Assembly: GCA_016936815.1 (NCBI GenBank)
Contig: JAFGXD010000168.1
Coordinates: forward strand, 1-37,901
Source of the DNA: Bacteroidales bacterium
GTDB lineage: Bacteria; Bacteroidota; Bacteroidia; Bacteroidales; GWF2-38-335
Direction of reading: 5' to 3'
DNA: 37,901 bases
This document shows, in pieces, positions 6,420-18,727 of this stretch; position 1 is the stretch's first letter; each line of letters starts with the position of its first letter. The notes under the pieces were generated by a model. It searched no databases, was not told where the DNA came from, and was given only the letters and a program-made list of their open reading frames with translations. A program made the translations under genes and the position numbers.

Positions 6420-8081
6420 TTATTCAACAATAAAGTTTAACAAAAGTTCCTGACCAAAGTCGTATGGAAAATTAAGTATTTCTTTTTTTGTTTCAAAATC
6501 GAGGATAGAAATTTTGCCGTTTTTTCCCACTAATTCTCTGTTGCTGTTCCAATACCACCAGTGCATTACCATTCCGTCTTCGAGTTTGTCTGTAAATCTG
6601 AATTTGTAACAACCCGGTGTTAAAGAGATTTGGTGATTGTATTCGGTGGAGTCGGTGTAATTATTTGCTGAAAAAACCGGGTTTCCCATGGAATTGGTAA
6701 TTATTGTTTGATTTTCCTTTGCTCTACCTTTGTCGTTTGTTTCTATATGAATGATAAACTTCTGTGGTAATCTGGTGATTTCAGGAACAAGAGAACTTAA
6801 TTTGTTATTTTCTTTGTTTTCATCAATTTCCCCGTTAGGTAAAAGCAATTCGGCAAAAAATATTTTGCTCGAATAGTCGAATTCAGGAAGAGTAATTTCG
6901 GTAGTTTCCATAAATTTCAAAGCTCCTTTCCACTGATATTCAGATGTTTTTTTGGAGTTTGCAGAACCATAAACAATTTTTAGGCTGTAAAGAACATTTT
7001 TGCCCGAATTTCTTATTTTTATTACAGGATTGGCGCAAATAGGATTTATTCTGCTGTATTCATCTTTTTTGGAGGGGGCAATTATTTCAAGAATTTCGGC
7101 ATCGTTATTAAAATTTGCCTTTCCAAATTCGAAAAGCTGATGCGACATTCGGTACTCTCCACCTTTTTCGCCGTTGTTTTGGTAATTTTCAATAAAATAA
7201 TCTACGTAAATACTATCGTTTGGAAATCCGTAATCTGTTATGTTGAAATCATATTCATCTACTTTTGTTCCCGGACACCAGCCTGCACGGTTAAATGGCC
7301 ATGTTCCGCCCTGAGGATAAATTGGGTTAAAGCCGCAATCTTTCCAAACATTCCATCTAACAAATTTGTCTTCACCAAAGGAATATCCGTGGGTTTTATT
7401 ATCCCATTCGCAGCAGTTTTGCGGACCAAAGTGTCTGTGACCGGAGATTCTGGCTTTAATTGAAAATGTTTCTGCTTGTGAGTTAATTAGAAACCCTGTT
7501 TTTTGCAGGACTGAATCGTCTGCTAATTTTTCGTAAGTGTAAATACCGTTGGGCCAGATGTTTTTAACAGAAATAACATTTCGGGGAGGTGTTCCGGAGA
7601 TAAAAAGGAAGGTCAAGTCTAGTAATTCCTGATTATTACCGGTTTCGAGCAAAATATTGCCTTTAAGAATTGGGGCATAATCTGTAATATCGTACTCCCA
7701 CTTCCAGCCATCTTCTCCGCCCATTTTTAGTCGTTTTCCGTATGGGGTAACAAAGCTTCCTATTTCAAATTTTTCGAAATCTCCGTTTTTTGAGATATGT
7801 AACACGGTGTTTGTAAAATAGTCCCATTCGCCACAAGGAAAACTATCGCCTTTAGTTCTTTCGTCGCATTTAAGATGCTGAACCATAATTATTTTTCTCC
7901 ATTGTCCTGAATCGGGGAAATGAACAGTTTTTTTATAGGAAGCGCCCCAACCTTCCGGACTGGGGTCTTCCCAAGTAAAAGCTTTTACAATTATTGTGTC
8001 TTGCGATTTAGAATTGAAATTAAGCAACAATAAAAAGGCAACAATAAAGAGGAATGTTTTGAATTTACAATCCAAATTCAT
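6420..8081 (-). CDS. Peptide-N-glycosidase F-related secreted protein
   Basis: Signal peptide after M17 of the ORF. Blocks align by eye with PNGase F: CGEWD (cf. CDEWD), [10 protein letters not shown] (cf. EIGRFITPYW), [16 protein letters not shown] (cf. ISGWGHAKPY..GCAEWC), RAGWCPG (cf. RAGWCPG). Confidence 0.85.
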
Positions 8082-9321
8082 TCTTAATTTTGTCAACATA
8101 GTCAAGCTTTTCCCATGTAAAAAGTTCAACTTCCATTTCTTTTTTTCCTAGATATGGCGATTCGAAAGTTTTTTTCACAATTCTGCAATCTCTTCCCATG
8201 TGGCCATAAGCTGCAGTTTCGCGGTAAATAGGATTTCTTAATTTCAATCTTTCTTCAATTGCTGCAGGTCTTAGGTCGAATAATTTGGCAACTTTGTTTG
8301 CAATAATACTATCGTTTTCTTTAACTTTTGCTGTTCCGTATGTATTAACAAAAATGTTAATTGGTTGAGCTACTCCAATTGCGTATGAAAGCTGAACAAG
8401 AATCTCATCGCAAATGCCTGAAGCTACAAGGTTTTTGGCAATATGTCTGGCCGCATAAGCAGCAGAACGGTCAACTTTACTTGGATCTTTTCCCGAAAAT
8501 GCTCCACCACCGTGAGCACCTTTTCCGCCGTAGGTATCAACAATAATTTTTCTGCCTGTAAGTCCGGTATCGCCGTGAGGACCGCCAATTACGAACTTTC
8601 CTGTTGGGTTAACATGTAGAACAAAATCGTTTTTAAAAAGAGTTCTAACACGTTCGGGAAGTAATTCTATTGTTCTTGGAATAAGAATATTAGCAACATC
8701 GTCTTTAATTTTAGCAAGCATTCTTGCATCATCTTTATCAAAATCGTCGTGTTGAGTGGAGACTACAATGGTATGAATTTTTTCCGGACTATGGTCGTCG
8801 GAATACTGAATAGTTACCTGCGATTTTGAATCTGGACGAAGGTAGGTCATTAGTTTTCCTTCTTTACGAATTTTTGCCAGTTCCATAAGCAGGATGTGAG
8901 AAATGGTAATAGCCAGAGGCATATAATCGTCGGTTTCGCGGTTTGCATATCCGAACATCATTCCCTGGTCTCCGGCACCCTGATCCATACGGTCTGTTTT
9001 GTCTACGCCACGGTTAATATCGGGGGATTGTTCGTGAATAGCAGCTAGAACTCCACAGGAATTGCCATCGAACTGGTATTCGCTTTTTGTGTAGCCAATT
9101 TGGTTAACAACTTTACGTGCAGTTTCCTGAACGTCAATATAGATTTGTGACTTTACCTCGCCGGCCAAAATAACCTGTCCGGTTGTTACAAGGGTTTCGC
9201 AAGCTACTTTTGAATTTGGGTCGAAAGCCAAAAATTCGTCCAACAAAGCATCTGAAATCTGATCGGCAACCTTATCCGGGTGACCTTCGGAAACAGATTC
9301 GGAAGTAAATAAATATGACAT
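8065..9321 (-). CDS. metK: S-adenosylmethionine synthetase
   Basis: [63 protein letters not shown]. Confidence 0.98.
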
Positions 9322-9388
9322 TTTTAATAGTTTAAATAAATACTAAATAATTAATTTACAGTATTTTTTAGAAAATTGTGAGCTGACT

Positions 9389-9438
9389 GTTGCTTTAGCA
9401 TTTTTTTTTGTGGTTGCAATCAACTCAAATCTTTCCAC
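9389..9438 (-). ncRNA. SAM-II (SAM_alpha) type riboswitch aptamer upstream of metK
   Basis: Minus strand: GTGGAAAGATTTGAGTTGATTGCAACCACAAAAAAAAATGCTAAAGCAAC. P1 GTGG/CCAC; conserved GATTTRA....ATTGCAA loop; GCTAAA motif; pseudoknot GTTG/CAAC. Same topology and length as the known 52-nt metX SAM-II aptamer. Confidence 0.87.
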
Positions 9439-9449
9439 TAAATACGGTG

Positions 9450-9481
9450 TAAAAGTAAAAAGTATTTAGACTTGTTCCAAA
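9450..9481 (-). promoter_or_regulatory. Candidate Bacteroidetes-type promoter for metK leader (TTTG-N20-TACTTTTA)
   Basis: Minus strand TTTG (9478-9481), 20-nt spacer, TACTTTTA (9450-9457), one mismatch to TAnnTTTG. Places the TSS just upstream of the aptamer. Confidence 0.5.
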
Positions 9482-9603
9482 CAAATTGCAATTTAATTGA
9501 TGTATCTTTTATTTTCGTTTGTGGTTTTTTCTTTTGTTGTATAAAAAGAAGATATCTATGAAAACCTCTTAAGGATCAAATAATGAAAAGAAAAACTCTT
9601 CCT

Positions 9604-18653: not shown

Positions 18654-18727
18654 GGGGCATTAGCTCATCTGGCTAGAGCGTTAGACTGGCAGTCTAAAGG
18701 TGATCGGTTCAAGTCCGATATGCTCCA
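18654..18727 (+). tRNA. tRNA-Ala (anticodon GGC)
   Basis: GGGGCAT...GCTC-ATCTGGCTA-GAGC...TTAGA-CTGGCAG-TCTAA...ATCGG-TTCAAGT-CCGAT...ATGCTCC-A. Cloverleaf with the G3:U70 alanine identity pair; CCA not encoded. Confidence 0.97.

Follow-up and report, generated by a model that had tools for sequence, protein, structure and literature searches.

Riboswitches of the SAM-II type are usually explained by one of two outputs, the hiding of a Shine-Dalgarno sequence (SD) or the formation of a terminator (PMC10907184; PMC6061858; PMC2258182). Several described systems bear on the element analyzed here. These include the SAM-II riboswitch of the metA/metX type (RF00521; PMC1273637) and SAM-V (RF01826), a related SAM-binding pseudoknot that has been reported in some marine Bacteroidetes and whose outputs rely on an SD (PMC6061858). 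In addition, SAM-II long loops (RF01726) were described in 2010 (Weinberg et al. 2010), with the taxa listed as Bacteroidetes and marine (PMC2864571). Finally, the metA SAM-II riboswitch of Sinorhizobium meliloti uses both an SD and a terminator and, like the element considered here, lies about 75 nt upstream of the start on which it acts; the available portion of that report makes no mention of an anti-aptamer strand of the kind presented below (PMC9373788).

We analyzed a window comprising the whole 37,901-nt stretch of DNA from a Bacteroidales bacterium (contig JAFGXD010000168.1). The features of the locus, all of which are on the minus strand, are as follows.

9450..9485, minus: likely promoter, TTTG plus TACTTTTA, from motif enrichment in relatives
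9385..9444, minus: SAM-II long-loop aptamer (RF01726)
9435..9438, minus: 5' strand of P1, GTGG, from sequence (partner 9410-9413)
9410..9413, minus: 3' strand of P1, CCAC, from sequence (partner 9435-9438)
9421..9424, minus: 5' strand of the pseudoknot (distal P2), GTTG, from sequence (partner 9389-9392)
9389..9392, minus: 3' strand of the pseudoknot, CAAC, from sequence (partner 9421-9424)
9394..9401, minus: last part of the A-rich loop and AUGCUAAA, the conserved 3' strand of P2 (AUGCUAA in 139/155 leaders)
9368..9390, minus: putative anti-aptamer strand, able to pair with GTGGAAAGATTTGAGTTGATTGC, the 5' half of the aptamer (9438-9416)
8065..9321, minus: metK, S-adenosylmethionine synthetase, 418 aa

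The original prediction had placed a SAM-II-type aptamer in the leader of a Bacteroidetes metK gene, and this much proved correct. When the whole window was scanned with cmscan, RF01726 was matched at 66 bits against a gathering cut-off of 44 (E = 9.7e-11, far above chance), with an alignment that runs the full length of the model (positions 1-60). The letters of the core at 9389-9438 are exactly those that had been claimed, and the GTGG/CCAC P1, the GTTG/CAAC pseudoknot, and the conserved blocks GATTTGA (9431-9425), ATTGCAA, and GCTAAA all lie on the minus strand where they had been placed. The identity of the downstream gene was likewise confirmed (NCBIfam TIGR01034, 513.6 bits); its ATG is at 9321, and the full RF01726 match sits 63 nt upstream. 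The covariance-model scan thus returned a significant match, the family being RF01726 rather than either of the two that had been named: RF00521, whose cut-off is 36 bits, reached only 11.9 (E 5.2), and RF01826 gave no match at E values up to 10. The window aptamer is like RF01726 in sequence, P1, pseudoknot, and phylum, scores above the curated cut-off of that family, and differs only by a 4-bp distal pseudoknot (GUUG/CAAC) and a one-base insertion relative to the consensus. With RF00521 it has in common the overall fold and the blocks GAUUU, UUGCAA, and GCUAAA, but its P1 and pseudoknot are separated by a longer loop, and its leader lacks an SD or terminator output. (Note that two matches in the window exceeded the gathering cut-off, the second being a tRNA gene at 18654-18727 on the plus strand [RF00005, 61.7 bits]. 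Elsewhere in the source genome, a further RF01726 match of 23.9 bits was rejected because it lies within coding sequence, and a second weak match scored 19 bits; three weak matches in genomes G003 and G014 were also set aside, one being terminator-hairpin-like and one lying in coding sequence.)

Because RF01726 had previously been listed in Bacteroidetes, the aptamer falls into a known family and the phylum is the expected one. Moreover, RF01726 exceeded its cut-off in 196/295 genomes sampled across the order, and metK was downstream in 156/157 retrieved loci with a recognizable core, so that the aptamer belongs to a known kind; it is one more member of a catalogued family, ordinary for the lineage and no surprise. 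These findings support the assignment of the element as a SAM-II long-loop aptamer ahead of metK and a predicted sensor of SAM. A second set comprised 79 named metK loci whose start could be read. The core motif preceded metK in 52 of these, mostly in Bacteroidales and Flavobacteriaceae, and was not found before metK in the loci sampled from Prevotella, Chitinophaga, Pedobacter, and Mucilaginibacter. As to whether the pairs are conserved in related metK leaders, as had been anticipated, P1 was paired in 153/153 scorable relatives, with compensatory A-U, C-G, and G-C variants included, whereas for the pseudoknot the expectation held at one of the four distal positions in the full set. This third pair covaries, being paired in 104/153 relatives versus 80 ± 3.6 in shuffles, and its excess is weaker among non-redundant leaders (28/41 versus 24.5 ± 1.6); at the remaining three positions pairing hardly exceeded that in shuffles, if at all, and these are near neutral.

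Immediately 5' of P1, the motif TAnnTTTG was present in 133/156 relatives, as compared with 7.4 in shuffles, and TAnnTTTG is the consensus of the Bacteroides -7 element (PMC7366714). In the window, TACTTTTA at 9457-9450 has one mismatch to this consensus, and TTTG occurs at either 9485-9482 or 9481-9478. The transcript thus likely starts a few nucleotides before P1, judging from these motifs.

The leaders of relatives were enriched, 3' of the aptamer, in TTCCC, CAATC, CAGTC, and TTTCC, which are complements of the aptamer 5' half. In the window, the duplex between 9390-9368 and 9438-9416 has a predicted energy of -20.1 kcal/mol (p 0.0002 versus shuffles), and when the pseudoknot strand is left out (9385-9368 only) the corresponding value is -13.6 (p 0.046). 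We compared the pairing of each leader with its own aptamer to its pairing with aptamers swapped in from other species. The pseudoknot 3' strand, a potential confounder, was left out so that covariation within the aptamer could not contribute; the signal held. Among 41 non-redundant Bacteroidales leaders, the mean duplex energy was -16.5 for own aptamers, as against -14.4 when aptamers were swapped and -12.1 when leaders were shuffled (own versus swapped, z -5.5, 0/10000 permutations), shared ancestry being reduced and still partly present in this comparison. Similarly, the values for 24 Flavobacteriales leaders, from which kinship was not fully removed, were -15.8, -14.2, and -9.4 (z -3.7). 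Shuffled leaders gave little gap between own and swapped aptamers, and thus base composition fails to explain the signal. We also classed aptamers by the variable segment that follows TTTG and scored leaders for 5-mer complements, which were present for the own class in 38% of leaders and for other classes in 10%. Examples include GATG with CATCC (4/4), AGTAG with TACTC (71%), and ATTG with CAATC (73%); some classes in this table do not match their own complement, and a convincing anti-aptamer was absent from leaders L028, L032, and L145.

That a downstream strand covaries with the aptamer 5' half in two orders points to an anti-aptamer fold that could not coexist with SAM binding and would resemble the second conformation of a switch. 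Consistent with this, the aptamer 5' half was paired to a substantial degree with the downstream strand (mean probability >0.4) in 27/34 leaders folded without constraint, and the window leader, folded likewise, forms the anti-aptamer helix (-27.2 kcal/mol, versus -9.7 with the aptamer blocked). Pairing, covariation, and predicted folds together suggest that the ligand-free leader would adopt this fold to the exclusion of the SAM-bound one. As far as the open-licence literature shows, an anti-aptamer strand in these leaders appears to be new, and a prior mention may exist. (The strand is 31% C and 10% G, and UUCCC recurs in 60 leaders versus 12 expected. This excess, seen for example in L005, L010, and L029, seems to go beyond what an anti-aptamer needs, the third C facing a U of P1; no further partner for UUCCC was found in the downstream leaders of relatives.)

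We looked for the outputs by which SAM-II riboswitches are known to act. Direct occlusion, in which the SAM-bound fold hides an SD adjoining the pseudoknot, is the described translational mode of SAM-II and SAM-V riboswitches, including that of metX (PMC10907184; PMC6061858). Here, however, it is highly improbable: an SD-like site was found in the last 22 nt of only 1/155 leaders, the core ends well short of the metK ATG (a median of 76 nt from GCTAAA in the retrieved loci), and the ribosomes of Bacteroidia do not recognize SD sequences (PMC9976891). Intrinsic transcription termination, which is the commonest mode reported for SAM-II in alpha- and beta-Proteobacteria (PMC2258182) and accounts for most proteobacterial SAM-II leaders, is also unlikely to operate, given that the window leader contains no intrinsic terminator and that terminator-like hairpins were no more frequent in relatives (9/155) than in shuffles (6). 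A run of T directly after the anti-aptamer helix was present in only 31/155 leaders (15 in shuffles), and a terminator made of that helix would act when SAM is absent, which is the wrong direction for metK. Thus, without SD sites and terminators, the usual SAM-II outputs do not fit here. Two further candidates were rejected. Sequestration of the metK start by the released anti-aptamer strand was not predicted in folding calculations, the unpaired probability of the start showing no overall change (0.527 versus 0.524), and pairing of the second codon of metK (AUGGG) with CCCA in the leader was weak (0.36 versus 0.21-0.30).

The reading we prefer, with a probability of roughly 0.7, is that the element is a SAM-II long-loop riboswitch that feeds back on metK as an OFF switch and has the anti-aptamer helix as its alternative fold. 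According to this reading, transcription would begin a few nucleotides ahead of P1, so that the aptamer emerges first. If SAM were bound, the pseudoknot would hold the aptamer 5' half; if SAM were absent, the 20-25 nt that follow in the leader would pair with that same half and take the aptamer apart. Less MetK would thereby be made when SAM is high. With neither an SD nor an intrinsic terminator present, the output would pass through one of two routes: SAM would either leave the anti-aptamer strand, with its many C and few G residues, accessible to Rho or another termination factor, or bury within the aptamer an A-rich AUG, a possible landing site for ribosomes. Within the open-licence literature searched, we found no description of such a mode of control for SAM-II.

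The first of these routes, in which SAM binding frees the anti-aptamer strand for Rho-type termination or RNA decay, is a tentative candidate. The composition of the strand and the recurrence of UUCCC speak for it, but the strand is C-rich because it is complementary to the G/A-rich aptamer strand, and the open-licence literature yielded nothing on Rho in leaders of this kind. The second route, in which the in-aptamer AUG would recruit ribosomes when SAM is low and serve as a standby site or open a short upstream frame that aids translation of metK some 76 nt downstream, we consider somewhat doubtful. In its favor, an AUGCUAA that follows a run of adenines (AAAAAUGCUAA-type motif) is kept in the large majority of leaders, adenines upstream being of the type that Bacteroidia prefer (PMC9976891), and in Sinorhizobium a SAM-II switch governs a start 74 nt downstream (PMC9373788). 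In the window the AUG opens a 16-codon frame, MLKQQSAHNFLKNTVN (9351-9401, minus strand), that ends 29 nt before metK. A conserved upstream peptide, however, was rejected as an explanation, with frame lengths close to those of shuffles and no convincing excess (among non-redundant leaders, 19.8 codons versus 18.0 by chance), and roughly half of the Flavobacteriales have a frame of no more than 4-5 codons. Moreover, the AUG motif may be kept for the structure of the aptamer alone, and the predicted fold leaves the in-aptamer AUG no more accessible than the start of metK.

The source genome contains, besides the SAM-II aptamer at metK, two SAM-I (RF00162) riboswitches over the cut-off. One (L243, G000:C27:13539-13648) precedes metH, as recognized by eye from the translation, and the other (L244, G000:C128:9226-9358) precedes a gene for a 382-aa protein followed by one for a ferredoxin-like protein, which we take to be a homocysteine-synthesis pair. 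Both classes were found in 65/295 genomes, SAM-I only in 22, and SAM-II only in 132; the direction is that of co-occurrence (Fisher p 0.08), and thus there is no mutual exclusion of SAM-I and SAM-II. In several genomes the two lie on one contig (e.g. G195:C1, G099:C35, and G203:C54), which argues against contamination. The SAM-I targets that could be recognized by inspecting translations were methionine-pathway genes, namely metH, cystathionine/homoserine sulfhydrylase enzymes, and aspartate kinase; metK was not among them, and two loci gave no clear gene.

It is about an even bet that these features reflect a more general arrangement, in which the conserved anti-aptamer of Bacteroidota metK riboswitches would constitute an SD-independent platform. 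The ligand-free leader would refold over the aptamer 5' half, the output would be either ribosome landing on the in-aptamer AUG or factor-dependent termination, and the same cells would use SAM-I for methionine synthesis genes and SAM-II for metK. What matters here is the platform rather than the aptamer, since the ribosomes of this phylum ignore the SD and neither usual SAM-II output applies. The conserved anti-aptamer thus offers a concrete target for mutation with which to address how riboswitches act in Bacteroidota, gut Bacteroides relatives included.
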